Source of the DNA: Polynucleobacter sp. Adler-ghost
GTDB taxonomy: Bacteria > Pseudomonadota > Gammaproteobacteria > Burkholderiales > Burkholderiaceae
Direction: 5' to 3'
NCBI RefSeq assembly: GCF_018688495.1
Contig: NZ_CP061320.1
Coordinates: forward strand, 1,832,586-1,896,585
DNA: 64,000 nucleotides
In this document: in pieces, positions 69 to 27,739 of the stretch
Layout of the letters: each line of letters opens with the position of its first letter
How positions within the stretch are numbered: position 1 is the stretch's first letter
Translations under genes and position numbers: made by a program
Notes under the pieces: generated by a model
The model's database searches: none
The model's input: only the letters and a program-made list of their open reading frames with translations
What the model was told of the DNA's origin: nothing

Positions 69-1253
69 CTAAGGCTCGATCCCTAATTCAACTGCGACAG
101 CTGCGCAATTTTGGCGAGCCTGGTTAATTGATTCACCTAAACAATTGATATGGCCCATCTTTCGACCCATACGTGGGTCAGATTTACCGTATAGGTGTAG
201 CTTCGCATCTGGATGAGAAAGCACCTTATCCCAAGCAGGCTCTCTTGCCTTATCCTCGCTGCCTTCGTACCAAAGATCTCCCAAGAGATTGAGCATGGAG
301 ACTGGCGCTAGCAAGCGGGTGTCGCCTAAAGGTAAGCGAGCCATACTTCTGACCTGCTGTTCAAACTGACTACTAATGCAGGCATCCATGGTGTAGTGGC
401 CTGAGTTATGCGGACGCGGAGCAATTTCATTGGCAACGATGTCACCGCTCTTGAGCACGAAAAACTCCACACATAACACGCCCACGTAATCAATCTTACG
501 GATCAGCGCTTTAGCAGCCTCAATAATTTTTTTCTCTTGAGCAGGCTTCAGTGATGGGGCTGGCACGGTAGAAGTATGCAAAATACCATCGCGATGGATA
601 TTTTGAGAAACAGGGTATGCCACTACCGCATCATCATATCCGCGCACTACTAAAGCAGAAACTTCGAAATCTAAATCCATCCGCTTTTCAAGAACACAAG
701 GCACCTTACTCAATTGGGTCCAAGCAGCAACTAGATTGGCAGAGTCATAAACTGTAATTTGACCTTTGCCGTCATAACCCATGCGAGCCGTTTTCAGAAT
801 GCCAGGAAATAGATCTGCAGGAACATGAGCAATATCTGCATCATGCTCAATGACAGAGTAAGGTGCAGGCCCAATACTGGTTTCCGCTTTCCAAGTAGCC
901 AAGAATTTTTTTTCAGCCACGCGGTTTTGTGCCAAAGATACGCAACTACTGCGAGGCGCTACAAAGACGCCTAAAGATTCGAGTTCGTCTAAAGCTTGTG
1001 CAGGAACATTCTCAAATTCCGTACTAACGGATTTACATAATGTTGCCATCTCTTTTAGCGCTGCAGAGTCGGTGTAATCGGCTTGAATAAATTTTTCTGC
1101 AATCGAGCCAGCTGGACTATCTGATCCAGGATCCAGAACGCAGACCTTGTAGCCCATCGCTTGAGCAGCTTGAGTAAACATCCGCCCTAATTGACCGCCA
1201 CCCAATATTCCTAAATACGAGCCCGGCAAGATGGGCTCCAAACGATCTACCAT
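69..1253 (-). CDS. purK: 5-(carboxyamino)imidazole ribonucleotide synthase PurK
   Basis: PurK makes N5-CAIR from AIR, ATP and bicarbonate, in the purine pathway step before PurE. The 394-residue protein has the nucleotide-fold motif GILGGGQLGRM at residues 16-26 and the ATP-grasp segment KTARMGYDGKGQ near residue 155. A metal/ATP-binding segment, EIAPRPHNSGHYT, lies near residue 275. Length is normal for the family. It lies 4 bp downstream of purE in the pgk-to-purK operon and is followed immediately by the probable tsaC. Confidence 0.96.
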   Translation of the reverse strand: MVDRLEPILPGSYLGILGGGQLGRMFTQAAQAMGYKVCVLDPGSDSPAGSIAEKFIQADYTDSAALKEMATLCKSVSTEFENVPAQALDELESLGVFVAPRSSCVSLAQNRVAEKKFLATWKAETSIGPAPYSVIEHDADIAHVPADLFPGILKTARMGYDGKGQITVYDSANLVAAWTQLSKVPCVLEKRMDLDFEVSALVVRGYDDAVVAYPVSQNIHRDGILHTSTVPAPSLKPAQEKKIIEAAKALIRKIDYVGVLCVEFFVLKSGDIVANEIAPRPHNSGHYTMDACISSQFEQQVRSMARLPLGDTRLLAPVSMLNLLGDLWYEGSEDKAREPAWDKVLSHPDAKLHLYGKSDPRMGRKMGHINCLGESINQARQNCAAVAVELGIEP

Positions 1254-1257
1254 CTGA

Positions 1258-1752
1258 TTAATATCCCGGCAAATTCATGGAGCGCGCGGTAGCAGACTGC
1301 TTTGCACGAAACTCTTCCAGCTGTTTTGCCAAAGCAGGATCGTTCACTGCCAGATTGGCAATGACATGTAAGGCTGCATTTGCAGCCCCAGCCTCACCAA
1401 TCGCAAACGTTGCTACCGGGATTCCTTTAGGCATTTGCACAATGGAATACAGAGAGTCTTCGCCACGTAAGTATTTGCTAGCGACTGGAACGCCATAAAT
1501 CGGAATAATTGTTTTTGATGCCAACATGCCCGGCAAATGCGCCGCACCACCAGCGCCAGCAATAATCGCCTTAAGGCCATTTTTGGAGGCATTTTCTGCA
1601 TAGGTAAACATATCGTCTGGCATGCGATGGGCAGAAACGACTTTAGCCTCGTGAGCAATGCCAAACTGCTCTAGCATTTGAGCAGCATGCTGCATGGTGT
1701 CCCAATCTGAATTGGATCCCATTACTATTCCGACTACTGGCTTTTTGCTCAT
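1258..1752 (-). CDS. purE: N5-carboxyaminoimidazole ribonucleotide mutase PurE
   Basis: Class I PurE moves the carboxylate of N5-CAIR (made by the adjacent PurK) to give CAIR. The fold motifs are GSNSDWDTM near the N-terminus, SAHRMP in the substrate loop and [10 protein letters not shown] in the active site. I chose the ATG at 1752 because GGAGAGG sits just upstream as a ribosome site. The frame is open a further four codons to a TTG, but that would bury this site. The protein is 164 residues, normal for the family. Confidence 0.96.
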
Positions 1753-1832
1753 TGACCTCTCCAAATGCCCTGATCTACATCGTTAATCTATCCAAGGCCT
1801 TATTATCCCAGCCTTTTGAAGGCTTTATAAAA

Positions 1833-2729
1833 TTAGGCCTTAGTTAAGCGAGCGAGGGCTTCGCGGTACTTTTCCGCTGTTTTATCAATCACATCTACCG
1901 GCAAAGCAGGTGCCGGAGCTGTTTTTGGCCAAGGCTTGCCATCAACTATTGCTGTTTCGAGCCAGTCCCGGACAAATTGCTTGTCATAGGAAGGGGGATT
2001 TGCACCCACATAGTAGGTTTCTGCAGGCCAAAAGCGAGAAGAGTCGGCGGTGAGGATTTCATCCATTAATACCAACTGACCAGCGTCATCTAAGCCAAAT
2101 TCAAACTTAGTATCAGCAATGATGATTCCACGAGTAGCGGCATATTCAGAGGCTTCTTTGTACAAACGAATACTAACCTCACGAATTTGATTGGCCAATT
2201 TCTCACCAATCATCTCAATCACTTTGTCAAAAGAGATATTTTCATCATGCTCACCCATTTCCGCTTTAGCAGCAGGAGTAAAGATAGGCTCAGGCAACTT
2301 CTGCGCATTTTCAAGGCCTGCTGGCAATGCAATACCGCACACCTTGCCAGTTTCTTTGTAATCCTTCCAACCACTACCAGCTAGGTAGCCTCGCACTACC
2401 GCTTCAACCAAGATTGGCTTGAGGCGTTTAGCTACTACTGCACGACCTTTGACCTGATCAAGCTCATCGACTGGCACTACGCTTTCAGGATCAATACCCG
2501 TCAAGTGATTCGGAATCACCTTAGCCAACTTCTCAAACCAAAAATTAGCCATTTGATTGAGCACAATTCCCTTTTCAGGAATCGGTTGACCCATCACTAC
2601 GTCAAAGGCAGATAGGCGATCTGTGGTGACCATGAGCAACTTGTCATCACCTAGTGCATATACATCACGCACCTTTCCTTTAGAGAGTAAAGGGAGTGAC
2701 TTAATGGAAGTAGCGTACAAAGCGGGCAT
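1833..2729 (-). CDS. purC: Phosphoribosylaminoimidazole-succinocarboxamide synthase (SAICAR synthetase)
   Basis: PurC condenses CAIR with aspartate using ATP, the step after PurE, and the two genes are adjacent here. The N-terminal KGKVRDVY nucleotide loop, the [11 protein letters not shown] strand and DTKFEFG near residue 205 are family signatures. At 298 residues it is the longer form common in betaproteobacteria and fungi, rather than the roughly 240-residue E. coli form. It sits 7 bp after fba, so a purine gene is embedded directly behind glycolytic genes. Confidence 0.96.
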
Positions 2730-2736
2730 ATTTAAC

Positions 2737-3801
2737 TCACTTCACGATCTGGGCTAATTTGCCACTCTTGTATAGCTCAGCCATTTTTTCCAAAGGAATT
2801 GGTTTAATTTTGGATGCCTGACCTGAACAGCCAAAAGCATTGAAGCGGGCAATGCAAACCTTCTTGGCCGCTTCACGTGCAGGCTTGAGGTAATCACGTG
2901 GATCAAACTTACTTGGATTCTCGAACAGATAACGGCGAATAGCGCCAGTCATCGCCAAACGAATATCAGTGTCGATATTAATTTTACGAACACCATTCTT
3001 AATGCCCTCTTGAATTTCTTCAACAGGCACGCCATAAGTTTCCTTCATGTCACCACCAAACTCACGAATCTCAGCGAGCAACTCTTGTGGAACACTAGAT
3101 GAACCATGCATCACTAAATGTGTATTTGGAATGCGGGTATGAATTTCCTTAATACGCTCAATCGCTAAGATGTCACCTGTTGGCTTCTTGGTAAATTTAT
3201 AAGCACCATGACTAGTGCCAATCGCAATCGCCAGGGCATCACATTGGGTAGCTTTTACAAAGTCAGCAGCTTGCTCAACGTCAGTTAATAGTTGCTCGCG
3301 CGTCATCTTGCCATCTGCGCCGTGACCATCCTCTTTATCACCTTGCATAGTCTCTAGTGAGCCAAGAACACCTAGCTCAGCCTCAACAGTAACTCCAATA
3401 GAGTGGGAGAACTTGACAACCTCTCTAGAGACATCAACGTTGTATTCATAGCTAGCAACAGTCTTGCCATCAGCCTCTAAGGAGCCATCCATCATCACGC
3501 TAGTAAAACCACTCTTGATAGCAGCCATACATACTGCAGGACTTTGGCCATGATCTTGATGCATCACAACTGGAATATGGGGGTAGGCCTCGACTGCAGC
3601 TGAGATTAAATGACGCAAGAATGATTCACCAGCATATTTACGAGCACCAGCAGAGGCTTGCATGATGACCGGGGAATCTGCTTCATGAGCAGCCTCCATG
3701 ATCGCAGTTACCTGCTCTAAATTATTGACGTTAAACGCTGGCAGGCCGTAGCCATTTTCAGCAGCGTGATCCAAGAGTTGTCGTAAAGATACTAAAGCCA
3801 T
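2737..3801 (-). CDS. fba: Class II fructose-bisphosphate aldolase
   Basis: This zinc-dependent TIM-barrel aldolase interconverts fructose 1,6-bisphosphate with dihydroxyacetone phosphate and glyceraldehyde 3-phosphate. The zinc-ligand motif [10 protein letters not shown] lies near residue 80. Further metal or phosphate segments are GTSHGAYK near 197 and MHGSSSVP near 231. The protein is 354 residues, the size of the proteobacterial CbbA-type enzyme. It lies between pyk (61 bp upstream) and purC (7 bp downstream) on the same strand. The ATG is preceded by AAGAGACC, a modest ribosome site. Confidence 0.95.
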
Positions 3802-18335: not shown

Positions 18336-18383
18336 TTTGGTGGCGATTCAGGGATTCGAACCCCGGACCTGTGGATTATGATT
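18336..18383. repeat. Left attachment repeat (tRNA-Met 3' fragment)
   Basis: Identical over 48 bases to 27661-27708. It holds the tRNA 3' end from CCA through the T arm to the anticodon loop (minus strand), but the 5' half of the tRNA is missing. An 8-bp inverted repeat, CTGTGGAT (18369-18376) and ATCCACAG (18392-18399), spans the right edge of the identity. It mimics and extends the tRNA anticodon stem, and is a likely core site for the integrase. Confidence 0.95.
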
Positions 18384-18511: not shown

Positions 18512-19822
18512 ATGAGTAGATCCACCCCTATTACATCCTCAATACAGACTATCTCGGGATATCCCAAAAAACTAGTCGTGTACCTAACTTTATCTAGTAA
18601 GTATTACTGGGTACGGGTTTACTTTCAAGGGAAGTATTTCACTAAATCCACAAAAACAACGAATTTAGTCGAATCTAAGAAGTTCGGGATTAAGTTCTAC
18701 GAACAAGTCTTGATGAATAGTGTCATTACGAAGACTTCAGACACAAATAAGTCATTTACGGTGGTTGGTCGAAATTATCTCGAATCGATTAAACCGACCT
18801 CCCTACCGACTGTGTATCGAAGTGATAAATCTCGATTTGAGTATGAGTTATCCCCATTTTTTAATGAACAAGATATCTCGACTATTACGAATTCTCAAAT
18901 TAGTCGATTTTTGAACAAACTATCAGAAAAGACCCGATCCCTCTCTACTCTGAAACATTACATCGTTGTTTTACGAAAAATTCTCAAGTTCGGTCTATCT
19001 AACGACTTAATCGACAAACTTCCTGTTTTTCCAAAACTCAGTAATAAAACACGAACAACACAAAAACGAGATTACTTAACAGACGAAGAATACGAATCAA
19101 TCGTCAGAATGAGTGAACTGTGTTCAAACGAAAATTTAATAGTTCGTGGTGTAGAGATAACACTAGAGATGAAATTCTTAATTCAGTTCATGGTCAATTC
19201 TTTCATCAGACCCTCCGACTTACGAGTGATTAAACATAAACACGTCACGATAAAGAAAGAGGGTAAAGATGAATGGATCGTCTTATCACATCCCGCGACT
19301 AAGACAAACGCAAATGAAGTTCAATGTATGACCGCAAGTGTAGGAATATACAAACAACTTTGTGAACTTCGATTAAAGAATCAAACAAAGATTTCTCCTG
19401 ACGAATATTTGTTTTTTCCTCAATACACTAATCGTGACACGATGATGAGTGTTGTCGGTAGGTTGTTCAGAAAAATAGTCGAGAGAACAAAACTCGAAAC
19501 TACAACAGATAAGAACATCACACTCTATTCATTACGTCACACATCAATCATGATGAGATTAGTAAAGGGTAATGTAAACACACTTCATCTTTCTAGAAAT
19601 GCTCGTACCTCACAACAGATGATTGACCAGTTTTATAGTCAACATCTAACCACCGACCAAGTTCGTGTTCATTTACAACGATTTGAGAGTGTCGAAAAGA
19701 AAAAAGAAGAACAACTCAAAAAACGACTAGATAAACAGAAACAAAAAGAAATTGAGAGAAAAGTTGTAGAAAAGATGAAATCCAAGACCCCCTTAAAAAC
19801 CACCAAGAAAGTTCAAAAATAG
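18512..19822 (+). CDS. int: Tyrosine recombinase (integrase) of the island
   Basis: The 436-residue protein has the phage-integrase fold. A SAM-like core-binding domain lies at about residues 80-170 (SRFLNKLSEKTRSLSTLKHY). The catalytic domain holds R233 (FIRPSDLR), R342 (YSLRHTS) and the nucleophile Y375 (IDQFYSQH). The usual box II His-x-x-Arg reads Tyr339-S-L-Arg342. A Lys/Glu-rich tail of about 45 residues follows the catalytic Tyr. The gene reads away from the left attachment repeat and should catalyse integration into tRNA-Met. Confidence 0.93.
   Translation: MSRSTPITSSIQTISGYPKKLVVYLTLSSKYYWVRVYFQGKYFTKSTKTTNLVESKKFGIKFYEQVLMNSVITKTSDTNKSFTVVGRNYLESIKPTSLPTVYRSDKSRFEYELSPFFNEQDISTITNSQISRFLNKLSEKTRSLSTLKHYIVVLRKILKFGLSNDLIDKLPVFPKLSNKTRTTQKRDYLTDEEYESIVRMSELCSNENLIVRGVEITLEMKFLIQFMVNSFIRPSDLRVIKHKHVTIKKEGKDEWIVLSHPATKTNANEVQCMTASVGIYKQLCELRLKNQTKISPDEYLFFPQYTNRDTMMSVVGRLFRKIVERTKLETTTDKNITLYSLRHTSIMMRLVKGNVNTLHLSRNARTSQQMIDQFYSQHLTTDQVRVHLQRFESVEKKKEEQLKKRLDKQKQKEIERKVVEKMKSKTPLKTTKKVQK
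18580..18589. promoter_or_regulatory. Third copy of the GTACCTAACT repeat, inside int
   Basis: An exact GTACCTAACT in codons 23-26 of the integrase gene, in the same orientation as the two upstream copies. It may be a third arm-type site or a coding coincidence; a coincidence is unlikely given three other copies beside the attachment sites. Confidence 0.4.
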
Positions 19823-19881
19823 TTCGGAATCAGAGTTAATATATCTCTGTCAAAACATCAATAAATTGATTGGAAGTAACA

Positions 19882-20808
19882 ATGGACTTATACAGACTAA
19901 CTAAGAATAAGAAATTAGAGTTAATTGAAACTACTAAGTTCGATTTAGAAAAAGACATTCAATCTGTAATAGAAAACCATACCCAAGAACTTTTTAATCT
20001 TCAGTTTGTAAAAAGTGAATTCTCAATCAATGGATATCGTCTAGACACTCTCTGTTTCAATCAAGAAACAAATTCATTTGTAATTATCGAATATAAAAAC
20101 ACTAACTCGTATTCCGTAGTTGACCAAGGATTCACATATCTATCAACGATGTTGAATAATAAATCCGACTTTGTATTGGAATACAACGAAGTTACAGGAA
20201 CAAATTTAAAACGAGATCAAATTGACTGGTCTCAATCAAGAGTAATTTTTGTATCACCTTCATTTAGTCAATATCAAAAAGATAGTGTGAACTTTAAAGA
20301 CATCCCTTTTGAACTATGGGAAGTTAAAAAATATAGTGACGACTTAGTAGGTTTGAAACAACTCACAAGTAACTCACGTCAAAGTATGAAAGGTCTCGAA
20401 AAATCGAAAGACAAAGTATTGAGTGAAGTCGAAGTATTTGATGAAGATTCTGTATTTCAAAAAAGTTCAAAGAATGTTCAAAAATTATATGAAGAAATAA
20501 AAGAAAAAATGTCAACGTGGAATGATGTTTCTTTTAACTCAAAGAAAAATTATGTTTCAGTTCTAAGAGGTAACAAAGTTAAGATTTATCTAATTCCACA
20601 AAAAAATCAACTCAAATTTGATATGGTTAGAAGAATTGATTTCAAGGGAAATGTTCAATCTATACCAATCAAATTTACTCTTGATGATCCAAAGAATATT
20701 TTCAAGTTACTAGTCAATGAATATAAAGAAATTTATACACTTAGTATTGATGACAATAAAAACCTTGACTACATTCTTCTGTTGATGAAACAGAAATTTG
20801 ATTCTTAA
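19882..20808 (+). CDS. DUF5655-type protein with PD-(D/E)XK nuclease-like domain
   Basis: The 308-residue protein has an N-terminal restriction-endonuclease-like fold. D55 (YRLDTLCF), E70 and K72 (VIIEYKN) form a D-x14-E-x-K pattern, and a conserved QGFTYLSTMLNNKSDFVLEY follows. The C-terminal third (from about residue 205, SKNVQKLYEEIKEKM) matches the DUF5655 layout as I remember it. Such proteins are common in mobile and defence-related regions, but their substrate is unknown. The ATG at 19882 is chosen for its TTGGAAG ribosome site. It follows int by 59 bp. Confidence 0.8.
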   Translation: MDLYRLTKNKKLELIETTKFDLEKDIQSVIENHTQELFNLQFVKSEFSINGYRLDTLCFNQETNSFVIIEYKNTNSYSVVDQGFTYLSTMLNNKSDFVLEYNEVTGTNLKRDQIDWSQSRVIFVSPSFSQYQKDSVNFKDIPFELWEVKKYSDDLVGLKQLTSNSRQSMKGLEKSKDKVLSEVEVFDEDSVFQKSSKNVQKLYEEIKEKMSTWNDVSFNSKKNYVSVLRGNKVKIYLIPQKNQLKFDMVRRIDFKGNVQSIPIKFTLDDPKNIFKLLVNEYKEIYTLSIDDNKNLDYILLLMKQKFDS

Positions 20809-21065
20809 TCTCTATCTTTTTAGTTAATTTGATTCTTTATAAAAAAGTTCATTTCCACTCAAACTGAATATTTCTGAAATTTTATTTCTGGAGAGAATCA
20901 CGATTTTTTGAATTTTCCATTTTTATGAATTTTTAGGAAATCACTAAATTGAAAGAATTTAAGATTTTTGACTTTTCGTCAATTTTTCACTTTCGACAAA
21001 ACCATCAAAATTCACAAAAAAATCTCAAAATATTTTGGTTAATATCACAATGTGGAACGATTTAA
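20809..21065. other. Very AT-rich gene-free leader before the structured region
   Basis: About 257 bases of A/T tracts with no credible reading frame. Small inverted repeats are present: GAAAT-TTT-ATTTC (20876-20888) and TTGAC-TTTTC-GTCAA (20968-20982), the latter followed by TTTTT. This could be a weak terminator for the DUF5655 gene and hold the promoter of the next region. I could not fix a convincing -35/-10 pair. Confidence 0.4.
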
Positions 21066-21652
21066 GGTATCAACTTGTATAAATAGATATGTAACAAGTG
21101 ATTCCGACACAAACACCACAACCATTGACAAATGTAGGTATGGAGATGTGGGTCAATACATGATGAAGTAGTTACCAAAGACAGACTGGGTAAATTAAAT
21201 AATTACTGTCACGATGAGTAATGAATACTCAATTAGTTTGGATATCGTTCGTGTGGTACCAAACTGATACCGTTGGAAAGAAGATGTAAAGGAAAACGAC
21301 TAACCGTCCTCCCTGTTTAACAGGTTATCTACACGAATGTATCTGAGAGTCCTAGACACAGATGAACACTTTATCTCGGATAGGTAAAGTGTATCTTCAA
21401 ATCCTTCCACAGATACATTGGTACTAGATTGGTTCTCGTGGATGGATCCATATTTCTTATATTAATTAATTCAATGGATCCTTAATACGAGGAACGAGTA
21501 TTAAATGACGTAGTCATCCACTAGATTGTTCCATTGATGAACTTTCCTAGTTTCCACTATCAATCACCAGATTCCTTTCCATATAAATAACCATAAGAAC
21601 CTAGTATCCACTTACTTGTCGTTACCAGTATCGGGACATTGAAGTGAGTTCT
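21066..21652 (+). ncRNA. Candidate large structured non-coding RNA, about 590 nt
   Basis: No frame is open, yet the stretch holds many perfect helices that nest without conflict. Domain 1 is closed by GGTATC (21066-71)/GATACC (21266-71). It encloses 21073-78/21094-99, 21124-29/21152-57, 21215-20/21226-31 and 21235-41/21259-65. Next is 21312-16/21320-24. Domain 2 is the 10-bp stem 21336-45/21410-19 around the hairpin 21366-76/21382-92. Domain 3 is a three-way junction: 21438-44/21515-21 around 21445-51/21474-80 and 21482-88/21498-504. The last hairpin is 21596-600/21648-52. T-G wobbles within stems (21374-21384, 21245-21256) pair only on the plus strand, which supports this orientation. I recognise no known family. 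Confidence 0.6.
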
Positions 21653-21690
21653 AGTCTTAGTTTCTATCCCCAATTTACCAAAGGAACCAA

Positions 21691-21894
21691 ATGAACCAAT
21701 TCACTATTGAATCTACTCCACAAGTTCAATATCCGTTAAGACTTGATTACCAACTCCATAACAAGTTTCATTCCCTATCTAAACGAACCAAGATTCCCAT
21801 GTCTACCTTAGGAAGACTATCTATCACTATGTTCTTAGATGAGGTTGATAACAAAGGAATTACAACAGTATTAAATGAAATGGAGACGATATGA
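21691..21894 (+). CDS. Small ribbon-helix-helix DNA-binding protein
   Basis: The 67-residue protein has the ribbon-helix-helix layout: strand YPLRLDYQ, helix LHNKFHSLSKRTK, the turn IPMS, and helix TLGRLSITMFLDEV. This matches the Arc/CopG/MetJ superfamily. Such proteins repress transcription or control copy number, excision or plasmid partition. The ribosome site is AAAGGAACC before the ATG. Its stop overlaps the start of the next gene (ATGA), so the two are translationally coupled. It starts 39 bp after the structured region and may control it or be controlled by it. Confidence 0.72.
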   Translation: MNQFTIESTPQVQYPLRLDYQLHNKFHSLSKRTKIPMSTLGRLSITMFLDEVDNKGITTVLNEMETI

Positions 21895-22064
21895 CATCGA
21901 GAGAACTAGAACAACTGGAGAAGAAGTCTATCTACACGATGAGAGTAAGTTCAGACTTAAAGGATCAGGTCATTAATGGATACTTAAACGAACTGAATAA
22001 GGTGATTAAGATGAATGTGAAGAAGAAGAAAATCGTAGTGTTAGTTATAGAGGATCTAATTTAA
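21891..22064 (+). CDS. Tiny basic protein, possibly a second ribbon-helix-helix protein
   Basis: A 57-residue product beginning MTSRELEQLEKKS. Strand IYTMRVSS is followed by helix DLKDQVINGYLNELNKVIK and then a basic KKKK run and a hydrophobic end VVLVIEDLI. This is compatible with a ribbon-helix-helix protein, but weaker than for its upstream neighbour. It starts inside the preceding stop (ATGA). Its TAA stop overlaps the stop of the convergent leftward gene at TTAA (22061-22064). Partner or excisionase-like roles are possible; nothing in the sequence decides. Confidence 0.6.
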   Translation: MTSRELEQLEKKSIYTMRVSSDLKDQVINGYLNELNKVIKMNVKKKKIVVLVIEDLI

Positions 22065-22618
22065 CGACAGAGGTATTTTTTTATATTTACAAGAATTGGA
22101 TCTGTTTTAAACCCATCTGATGTGAACTTCTTAGGTTGGTCATCTAATATTACTTCTCTTCCAAACAAATTTTCTTCAGAAAAATAAGTATCAGACAAGA
22201 CCAGAAAAGTAGGTAGTTGACAATACATATGTCCACCAAGAAGTCTACTGTAGTAAGTTATATTGTTTTTGTATTGAGGAACGGAACTATTTACAAATAG
22301 TTGAAAATAAATATAGTCATACTTACTTTTTTTTATCATTGACTTAATTATATAAAAAGACCTTGTTTCTTTATTTCCAAGAAAATATAAATCTGGATTT
22401 CGAGAATTTTGATTACCACCTACACCATTGGATTTCAAAATTTCTCTATTAATTCTGTCTGTTTCTCTGTCAATTCTGTCGTTTTCCCTTTTGAGTTTAT
22501 CCATCTCTCGTTCAAATTCCATCTCATCAAGTCTATTCAAAATATCTTGGTTACTTACTTGTGAGTAAGATGAAGTGGAAACCAGTAATAAAATTGTGAG
22601 AAGTATTTTATTTAACAT
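22061..22618 (-). CDS. Secreted protein with charged coiled-coil segment, unknown function
   Basis: I do not recognise this 185-residue protein. It opens with a clear signal peptide (MLNKILLTILLLVSTSSYSQ, cut probably before or after the Gln). Residues about 22-62 form a highly charged helix rich in Arg, Glu and Asp with repeated DRI/DRE units, likely a coiled coil. The remainder looks globular, with Cys in GGHMYCQL and near the C-terminus (KKYLCR). It is the last gene of a five-gene leftward operon, 19 bp after the lipoprotein gene. Confidence 0.7.
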   Translation of the reverse strand: MLNKILLTILLLVSTSSYSQVSNQDILNRLDEMEFEREMDKLKRENDRIDRETDRINREILKSNGVGGNQNSRNPDLYFLGNKETRSFYIIKSMIKKSKYDYIYFQLFVNSSVPQYKNNITYYSRLLGGHMYCQLPTFLVLSDTYFSEENLFGREVILDDQPKKFTSDGFKTDPILVNIKKYLCR

Positions 22619-26476: not shown

Positions 26477-26884
26477 ATGAAAAATACTACCATTTCGTTA
26501 CTACTCGGACTACTGGTTTCTACTGTGTTTCTTACATCTTGTGGAAAAAGTGATGACGACTCCTTCATACTCTCATGTGAGGGAGAAACAAAATGGGTTG
26601 GTAATGTGATGGGTAAAGATACGACAGGTATTACACCTGAGAAATTGACCTTTAAATTCGTAAATGGTCAACTACCAGATTACCAGTGTCAACCATTCTC
26701 AAAGGAATATATTACTTGTGTAAAAAAGGTTGATGAAATAAATGAAAGTTTTCTTGAGACCCTCTATTTTGAAAGATTGACTGGATTTGGAAAATCTCAA
26801 TCTACAAAATTAGATAAATTATCTAACTCAACAGTTTCAAAACAATTTATTGGTAACTGTAAAAAAGAAACTAATAAATTTTAA
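26477..26884 (+). CDS. Predicted lipoprotein, unknown function
   Basis: A 135-residue product with a lipoprotein signal: basic MKNTT, a hydrophobic run, then lipobox FLTSC with Cys22 and an aspartate-rich start of the mature part (GKSDDDSF). Further Cys residues (LSCEG, YQCQP, YITCVK, GNCKK) could form two disulfides. The frame is open to 26441, but starting at 26477 gives the correct signal peptide. Its TAA stop overlaps the stop of the convergent serine recombinase at TTAA. It is probably cargo on the element. Confidence 0.68.
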   Translation: MKNTTISLLLGLLVSTVFLTSCGKSDDDSFILSCEGETKWVGNVMGKDTTGITPEKLTFKFVNGQLPDYQCQPFSKEYITCVKKVDEINESFLETLYFERLTGFGKSQSTKLDKLSNSTVSKQFIGNCKKETNKF

Positions 26885-27462
26885 AGTACCGAGTAAACAG
26901 TTCCGACTCCAATCTGAAGTTGTTTTGAGATTTGTTTGATACCCATTCCCTTTTCTCTCAACAACTTGACCGCACTTTTCATTCCTTCATTCATCTTTGT
27001 TGGACGTCCGAGTTTCTTTCCTTGACTGACCGCTCGATCCAATCCACTTTTCACTCTCTCCGAAATTAAACTTCTTTCCATTTCAGAGATACAACCAAAG
27101 ATTCCAAAAATCATCCGACCTGACGATGTAGACGTATCAATCGACTGTTGATTGAAATACAAGTCAATTTTGAGTTCATTGAGTTCATTCATGACTTCTA
27201 CCAAATGAGTGACTGAACGACCTAATCTGTCCACAGACCACACTAGAACCATCTCAAACTTCCTCTGAACACCGTCTTTTAACATCTGATCCAGTCCAGG
27301 ACGATCCTGACGTCCCTTAGAACCCGATATACCGTTATCTGAGTAGATTTGAGTGATATGGTACCCACATCTATCTGAATACTCTCTAAGAACCTGTATT
27401 TGGTTCTCTACAGTCTGTTTGGTGGTAGATACTCGAACATAGATACAAACTCGTTTAGACAT
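26881..27462 (-). CDS. Serine recombinase (resolvase/invertase family)
   Basis: The 193-residue enzyme has the catalytic Ser12 in YVRVSTTKQ, the resolvase signature GISGSKGRQDRPGL near residue 45 and LVWSVDRLGRS near 75. The long E-helix follows (FGCISEMERSLISERVKSGL), then a C-terminal helix-turn-helix (GMGIKQISKQLQIGVGTVYSVL). It is full length and close to the Pin/Gin/Tn3-resolvase size. It should resolve, invert or integrate DNA at short sites, which I could not locate. It lies next to the right attachment repeat; the element thus encodes both recombinase classes. Confidence 0.93.
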   Translation of the reverse strand: MSKRVCIYVRVSTTKQTVENQIQVLREYSDRCGYHITQIYSDNGISGSKGRQDRPGLDQMLKDGVQRKFEMVLVWSVDRLGRSVTHLVEVMNELNELKIDLYFNQQSIDTSTSSGRMIFGIFGCISEMERSLISERVKSGLDRAVSQGKKLGRPTKMNEGMKSAVKLLREKGMGIKQISKQLQIGVGTVYSVL

Positions 27463-27660: not shown

Positions 27661-27708
27661 TTTGGTGGCGATTCAGGGATTCGAACCCCGGACCTGTGGA
27701 TTATGATT
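27661..27708. repeat. Right attachment repeat, within tRNA-Met
   Basis: Exact 48-base copy of 18336-18383, covering the tRNA 3' end from CCA through the T arm to the anticodon loop. Identity ends in the anticodon loop/stem, which suggests the crossover lies there. Confidence 0.95.
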
Positions 27709-27739
27709 CCATCGCTCTAACCAACTGAGCTAAATCGCC
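27663..27739 (-). tRNA. tRNA-Met (anticodon CAT)
   Basis: A complete 77-nt cloverleaf with encoded CCA. The acceptor stem is GGCGATT/AATCGCC, the D arm contains AGCTCAGTTGGTTAGAGC, the anticodon loop is ATCATAA (anticodon CAT), and the T loop is GGTTCGAATCC. Elongator Met is the likeliest identity; a CAT anticodon can also belong to tRNA-Ile decoding AUA after lysidine modification, which sequence alone does not fully exclude. The island occupies its 3' flank but restores the full tRNA. Confidence 0.95.

Follow-up and report, generated by a model that had tools for sequence, protein, structure and literature searches.

The stretch at 21066-21652 of the window (the whole 64-kb stretch of DNA analysed, from a host genome that is a single contig of 2.1 Mb) encodes a conserved, plus-strand, pseudoknotted structured RNA whose ends we infer, and in its full form this RNA is part of small elements that are integrated at tRNA genes and encode a tyrosine integrase. 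The RNA is predicted to span about 480 nt (21091-21575). An Rfam scan of the whole window at gathering score returned one tRNA and Methylobacterium-1 (RF01712) and nothing else; the latter matches at 21177-21277 (+) with 56 bits, against a gathering score of 40, and covers model positions 1-103 of 103. The classes that the first-pass annotation had named for checking (GOLLD, ROOL, OLE, HEARO, and group I and II introns) gave no Rfam match in 20800-22100 up to E=5, so membership of GOLLD or ROOL is rejected, and the only other match in that interval was a microRNA model at E 3.6, under its gathering score and at chance level. That annotation had proposed a large multi-helix RNA in a tRNA-linked island, GOLLD- or ROOL-like in kind, which our data bear out; it had also called the RNA new or divergent, which appears to be true of the larger form beyond the model but not of the core. 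Methylobacterium-1 was listed in the table of Weinberg et al. in 2010, with the source 'Methylobacterium, marine', as an RNA that is neither cis-regulatory nor a riboswitch, and the passages of that paper give no function (PMC2864571).

The conserved RNA described here has two to three times the length of the Rfam model. Counted from model position 1, its conserved part covers about 240-325 nt, of which 130-220 nt lie beyond the model's end; a pseudoknot arm stands before the model start, and there is an extra 5' domain of some 70-205 nt that differs by lineage. In the window, helix a (TTACC/GGTAA, 21172-21176 with 21189-21193) crosses helix b (GACAG/CTGTC, 21180-21184 with 21206-21210) to form an H-type pseudoknot, with the 5' arm of helix a lying outside the model, before its position 1. 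Hairpin c (GAGTA/TACTC, 21216-21230), hairpin d (ATTAGTTTGG/CCAAACTGAT, 21232-21268), helix e (AGGA/TCCT, 21290-21293 with 21307-21310), and hairpin f (21312-21324) follow, and helices a to f are all backed by covariation. Further downstream, a 10-bp stem (AATGTATCTG/CAGATACATT, 21336-21345 with 21410-21419) is seen from pairing in the window and in homologues: its 10 pairs are kept in G1459 (one as G-U), 9 of 10 are kept in G1499, and the stem is largely lost in G1527. The 11-bp long hairpin g (21366-21392) has a counterpart with different letters in 21 homologues, for which arms were chosen by eye and listed by hand; the one in G1459 is weak (score 5/10). A three-way junction (21438-21521), read from pairing in the window, forms a lineage-specific 3' domain. 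All of these features lie on the plus strand.

Much of this architecture had been noticed in the first reading of the letters: the 10-bp stem, the 11-bp hairpin, and the 7-bp stem closing the junction are present where it placed them, its AT-rich left flank is real, and the region is free of open frames as it said, with none of at least 60 aa on either strand between 20808 and 21691. It had also closed a first domain by a 6-bp long-range pair (21066-21071 with 21266-21271); the two arms are indeed complementary (GGTATC/GATACC), but the 5' arm lies upstream of the predicted start and the 3' arm overlaps the covarying hairpin d, and we reject the pair. That reading did not include the pseudoknot, the match of the core to Rfam, or the two TATAAATA sites (21078 and 21582) that we discuss below. 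We also observed a motif, GACNCARRT/CCNCARRT, duplicated on either side of the long hairpin (21355-21363 and 21407-21414 in the window) in most full-length loci. A regular expression detected the pair of copies in 32 of 43 loci, and in 29 the variable base N agreed between them (A, T, or G by lineage), although it mispaired G414, G882, G937, and G1527, and by eye the copies differ in G854 and G1527. The two copies may be strands competing for one partner, constituting a possible switch.

Compensatory changes in homologues, which the first-pass annotation had asked for, are abundant. In an alignment of 25 dereplicated sequences (of 40 loci, 26 remained after removal of near-duplicates at >93% identity, minus the truncated G202), 24 of the 27 pairs in four core helices show two-sided changes, and 93.6% of cells are paired, compared with 31-43% when the arms are slid by 1-3 columns. 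None of 500 shuffles reached the observed covariation on four of five measures, and 8 of 500 did so on the fifth, the number of pair types. Pairing in helix a reaches only 82%, as the outer three pairs fail often; its inner pairs vary from C-G to U-A, A-U to G-C, and C-G to G-C. Downstream of the Rfam motif, an alignment of 21 sequences (made without L096, G202, G751, G1004, and G963, in which the RNA is cut or interrupted) gave two-sided changes in 7 of 8 pairs and 98.2% pairing versus 27-68% when slid, with 0 of 500 shuffles as high on four measures and 15 of 500 on the fifth; the long-hairpin part of this alignment was left uncounted because its arms did not align. Kinship among the sequences inflates these pair-change counts as well as the locus counts, and the statistics are not tree-aware.

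The same helices identify the functional strand. G-U cells outnumber A-C cells by 17 to 2 in the core helices (2 to 1 in the next two), and we therefore take the plus strand, already favoured in the first reading on the ground of wobble pairs, to be the functional one. Folding energy is better than that of shuffled sequence, but modestly: the 21066-21652 stretch has a z of -1.68 (1 of 20 shuffles as good), with -1.86 for its minus strand (2 of 20), and the predicted transcript at 21091-21575 has a z of -2.45 (0 of 40), over which the minus strand folds equally well (-121.5 vs -120.7 kcal/mol). Each of eight members tested, the window included, beat all 40 of its shuffles. Folding energy alone is thus modest evidence, and covariation is the decisive evidence for a structured RNA.

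We collected 43 loci of this RNA; the order to which a Puniceispirillum (SAR116) MAG (G201) belongs supplied most of them. In genome sets that overlap, of which four are even draws and in which searches of more than 40 genomes use filters that lose weak matches, RF01712 occurs in 27 of 136 genomes of that SAR116 order (28 places), 6 of 385 genomes of the same MAG's class, 6 of 297 genomes of G203's order (a single one of these fell under the cut-off and was dropped), and 4 of 186 genomes of the window's genus, its own included; the single hits among 200 genomes of the window's family and 399 of its order are both the window's own. One SAR116-order genome (G924) holds two clearly different copies (L186 and L177). 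Viral contigs yielded one member, L002 (101.7 bits), and a 3.8-kb contig labelled Dehalococcoidia, which may be misbinned, yielded L096 (103.2 bits). In L096 (about 960-3338), the conserved RNA stops about 115 nt after the core start and is followed by two genes, which we take to resemble an IS21-type transposase pair. A candidate in G863 was dropped (33.2 bits, under the cut-off), as it looks like coding sequence.

Pattern searches added few members. A looser pattern in viral sequences gave 86 stretches, of which by eye only L002 was judged a homologue; a further viral pattern gave 12, of which, besides L002, nine were Rfam-scanned without a match to RF01712 and two were dismissed by eye; and a genome pattern scan gave 22 stretches, of which 11 were Rfam-scanned, L096, L098, L104, and L111 among these 11 being real, and the other 11 were judged by eye. 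In phage records, blastn of the window RNA, L002, and G417 found no match; in plasmids, L002 had no match and the window RNA matched two chance-level pieces (E 0.6). Across the loci, the 5' domains upstream of the core fall into several unrelated-looking types. The 3' ends beyond the long hairpin differ too: the window has a three-way junction, which recurs partly in G1459, and G201, G417, G308, and G854 have two strong hairpins. The 5' and 3' domains thus seem to have been swapped between lineages while the core was kept, a layout that resembles the conserved and variable halves of GOLLD.

In the window, the RNA sits within an integrated element. Its left attachment repeat (48 bp, 18336-18383) is identical to a right repeat at 27661-27708, which overlaps a tRNA-Met(CAT) gene at 27663-27739 (-). 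Just inside the left repeat lies a tyrosine integrase (18512-19822, +), relatives of which occur near the RNA in seven other loci, followed by a cargo gene that matches the candidate anti-phage defence family PDC-S18 (19870-20808, +; E 3e-96), which separates the integrase from the RNA. Downstream of the RNA is a gene for a 67-aa protein (21691-21894, +) with a weak match to Arc-like, ribbon-helix-helix repressors (E 6e-4), and close to the right repeat lies a serine resolvase (26881-27462, -), relatives of which lie within 10 kb of the RNA in four other loci; the remaining cargo is mostly unrecognised. The integrase is 97% identical in Polynucleobacter paneuropaeus and the repressor 84% in P. 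sphagniphilus, close relatives whose names point to Polynucleobacter as the host genus. The window thus shows the integrated element, integrase, and attachment repeats that we looked for in a phage satellite.

The other loci repeat this arrangement. A combination of Aragorn and an exact-repeat search identified tRNA-anchored direct repeats in 14 of 40 loci, and in 13 of these 14 the RNA lies between the repeats, in elements of 2.6-10.4 kb (the repeats are short in G888, at 20 bp, and G911, at 24 bp). G895 was set aside as an att-bracketed locus, as its repeat does not enclose the RNA. In the window's own genus, a 13.7-kb element of G1459 occupies a tRNA-Met site comparable to that of the window. 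In 29 of 40 loci (the union was counted by hand), the RNA has a tyrosine integrase from either of two families no more than 7 kb away, and all six integrases checked have Pfam integrase-type domains, one of them N-terminal domains only. The integrase family also occurs without the RNA: the G905 integrase has matches in 57 of the 136 SAR116-order genomes, compared with 27 that have the RNA. Of the 19 closest places (at least 72% identity, G905 itself included), 17 adjoin an RNA, among them every one of the 16 that are free of in-frame stops; more distant matches mostly do not. The smallest element (G354, 2.6 kb) comprises the RNA together with genes for an integrase and an acetyltransferase and a single small ORF; beyond its right repeat lies another integrase from the same family. 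A small ribbon-helix-helix gene is found in 16 of 40 loci.

PHROGs profiles recognised no phage structural genes among the window's ten cargo proteins. Across the elements, we compared 52 of the 84 ORFs of at least 100 aa (after integrases, resolvases, near-copies, and some others were taken out) with Pfam and PHROGs, and found no capsid or packaging genes among the best 25 of 26 Pfam and best 25 of 50 PHROGs families. One 374-aa cargo protein of the G925 element (L197 6974-8095, -) matches phage terminase large-subunit profiles; the protein set that holds this match shows homing-endonuclease and intein-splicing Pfam matches, and the protein may be a free-standing intein relative. Phage records gave no match to the integrase or to the repressor, the latter searched also with a 45-residue fragment of a relative, and an integrase search in viral contigs returned 28 pattern matches, none of which was confirmed.

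A possible trigger for the RNA lies directly upstream of it. T4 late promoters are not known to have a -35 element. Their -10 motif is TATAAATA, at -13 to -6, and the late promoter motifs of phages Aeh1 and S-PM2 are CTAAATA and NATAAATA, respectively (PMC1524935, PMC2984593). On both strands of the 64-kb window together, TATAAATA occurs exactly twice: before the RNA (21078-21085, +) and before the Arc-like repressor gene (21582-21589, +). The T4 spacing (PMC1524935) places the predicted RNA start near 21091. The first site is kept in G1459 and G1527 and reads CATAAATA in G1499; the second is kept in G1459 and G1499 and absent from G1527. More broadly, 31 of the 39 loci with sufficient flank (which leaves out G913) carry [AC]TAAATA on the RNA strand at 20-230 nt upstream (83-216 nt ahead of the core), and none carries it on the opposite strand, compared with a mean of 6.6 and a maximum of 12 in dinucleotide shuffles; TAAATA is common in AT-rich genomes, and several loci have two or three copies of the motif. 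Since we picked the motif class after seeing the loci, the relevant controls are the shuffles and the count on the opposite strand. Three later loci bring the count to 34 of 42.

Seven loci (L002, L096, G202, G203, G417, G433, and G414) have CTAAATA in place of ATAAATA. The motif is missing in eight of the 39, including the smallest element, G354; this locus and G1004, G882, G943, and G888 have a TATATA-like variant that we noticed post hoc. We found no enrichment of a -35 box: the mean best match is 3.1 of 6 positions against 3.0 at random places, and a match of 5 or more occurs in 2 of 34 loci against 3% at random places. Nor is there a sigma-70-type site in 20800-22100 of the window, compared with 6.0 in shuffles. 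The motif also precedes 12 of 16 repressor operons, sitting within a short upstream ORF in five of the 12; among other ORFs it precedes 71 of 589, or 45 of 283 when the comparison is confined to the same loci. A TATAAATA-like -10 with no -35, strand-specific and upstream of the predicted transcript, has the form of a T4-type late promoter. In L002, G202, G203, and G433, boxes reading GGGATAC or GGTATCCC stand just upstream of the late-type motif, and in L002 they form an inverted repeat; these are possible protein sites.

We consider it somewhat better than an even bet that the RNA works in trans for an element resembling a phage satellite and that a T4-like helper drives its synthesis late in infection. 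Because the RNA of these islands sits behind a switch resembling the T4-type late promoter, we suggest that the islands live off such viruses, as satellites or hitch-hikers of T4-like phages, the helper being putative. On infection, judging from the promoter motifs, a phage late sigma factor of the gp55 type and the sliding clamp would bring RNA polymerase to the two TATAAATA promoters; as these have no -35 box and would be used by the late sigma factor, the RNA and the Arc-like repressor would then be transcribed late in infection. There are precedents: the most abundant transcripts of PLE and ICP1 are noncoding (PMC7567579), GOLLD rises in lysis (PMC12286853), and virulent or jumbo phages move integrase islands (PMC10803314, PMC12595487). 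More speculatively, the RNA may act in trans at this stage, in packaging, in assembly, or in the control of helper late genes, and thereby favour the spread of the element to new cells; this action in trans is the weakest step, to which we commit as a guess.

The same observations could instead reflect a housekeeping or regulatory RNA of the element, controlling the integrase or copy number and made by host polymerase, with TAAATA serving as an AT-rich -10 box and the element spreading by conjugation, transformation, or generalised transduction. We regard this as unlikely, yet as a serious contender. It would fit with the lack of recognised phage structural genes among the window's ten cargo proteins (PHROGs) and among the families listed for the 52 ORFs, the intein-like terminase-profile match apart; with the lack of phage records matching the RNA, the repressor, or the integrase; and with the finding that tyrosine-integrase islands without transfer genes are common (PMC12595487). 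Promoter evidence points the other way: no -35 box is enriched, the CTAAATA that replaces ATAAATA in seven loci is a poor sigma-70 -10 box, and TATAAATA in the window marks exactly the RNA and the repressor gene.

An improbable alternative is that the RNA is a primer or origin RNA, from which, as an R-loop or a folded primer, the excised circle would begin to replicate, in a logic comparable to that of ColE1 RNA II or T4 R-loop origins. The RNA does lie close to the integrase in a 2.6-kb element, and PHROGs recognised no replication family in the other two ORFs of that element, but a primer would be expected to conserve its 3' end, and both end domains vary widely. That the RNA is a riboswitch-like, cis-acting leader of the next gene is more doubtful still. 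An ORF with a Shine-Dalgarno-like site directly follows the RNA in G433, G882, and G937; the next gene varies by locus, however, and is on the opposite strand in G905, G909, G892, and G894, in the window another TATAAATA stands between the RNA and the repressor gene, and the 2010 table lists the family as not cis-regulatory (PMC2864571). We therefore reject a riboswitch or cis leader, as the loci do not share one class of downstream gene in one orientation. Least credible is a hairpin-rich DNA site (an origin, att arm, or transfer origin) with no RNA at all, the alternative raised in the first-pass annotation: hairpins do lie near the integrase and in the window the two strands fold equally well, but the excess of G-U over A-C cells in the covarying helices (17 vs 2) and the strand-specific promoter-like motif disfavour it.

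Returning to the reading of a late, trans-acting RNA of a satellite-like element, the core has been known since 2010, and the fuller RNA form, the pseudoknot arm, the element context, and the late-type promoter appear to be new. In passages of PMC2864571, Methylobacterium-1 stands without element context, late-type promoter, SAR116-order frequency, or freshwater members. Among the matches listed in a search of open-access papers (subscription papers and bioRxiv were outside its scope), none links Methylobacterium-1, satellites, late promoters, and SAR116. A bolder proposal, which we advance tentatively and would expect to fail sooner than to hold, is that Methylobacterium-1 is the core of a large late-infection RNA that, with the integrase, defines an unrecognised family of very small satellites (2.6 kb in the shortest case), which in SAR116 and Polynucleobacter would exploit T4-like phages, hijack their late promoters, and be mobilised by an RNA instead of dedicated proteins. 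For an orphan RNA family, these results supply a far more complete structure, a place in the genome, and a trigger that can be tested. Should the late-promoter reading be true, the family would be an independent example, beside GOLLD/ROOL and PLE/ICP1, of a large, ornate, phage-late RNA, in elements simple enough to ask directly about the role of such RNAs.

Several known elements resemble those described here. PICMIs (PMC10803314) and the I55 island, which is mobilised by a jumbo phage (PMC12595487), are also integrase islands with anti-phage defence; they depend on virulent phage, as we propose for the present elements. PICMIs, at about 6 kb, have no capsid-remodelling genes, but they integrate beside fis and need AlpA and prim (PMC10803314), and I55 is larger (PMC12595487); the PICMI text makes no mention of non-coding RNA or ncRNA, and the I55 text does not contain 'noncoding'. 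Tycheposons share the tRNA-Met border, the tyrosine recombinase, and life in aquatic bacteria, but are cargo-carrying elements of 4-200 kb, with no structured RNA in the passages that describe them (PMC10872708). In the PLE satellite, which makes an abundant IIR transcript, and in its phage ICP1, the most abundant transcripts are noncoding, and satellite expression is thought to follow the phage programme (PMC7567579); host and element are different, and we liken the systems by description, the late timing here being deduced from motifs. ROOL is a large pseudoknotted RNA of phages and prophages, often near tRNAs and of unknown function (PMC12286853), which has no Rfam match here. GOLLD, also without an Rfam match here, is longer, many GOLLDs exceeding 800 nt compared with about 480 nt predicted here (PMC12286853). 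Its expression rises during phage lysis, a timing that motifs suggest for our elements too. GOLLD has a universally conserved 3' region and a less conserved 5' region, and like the RNA described here it is large, multi-helix, and often near tRNAs, in one case downstream of a Met-tRNA (PMC12286853).
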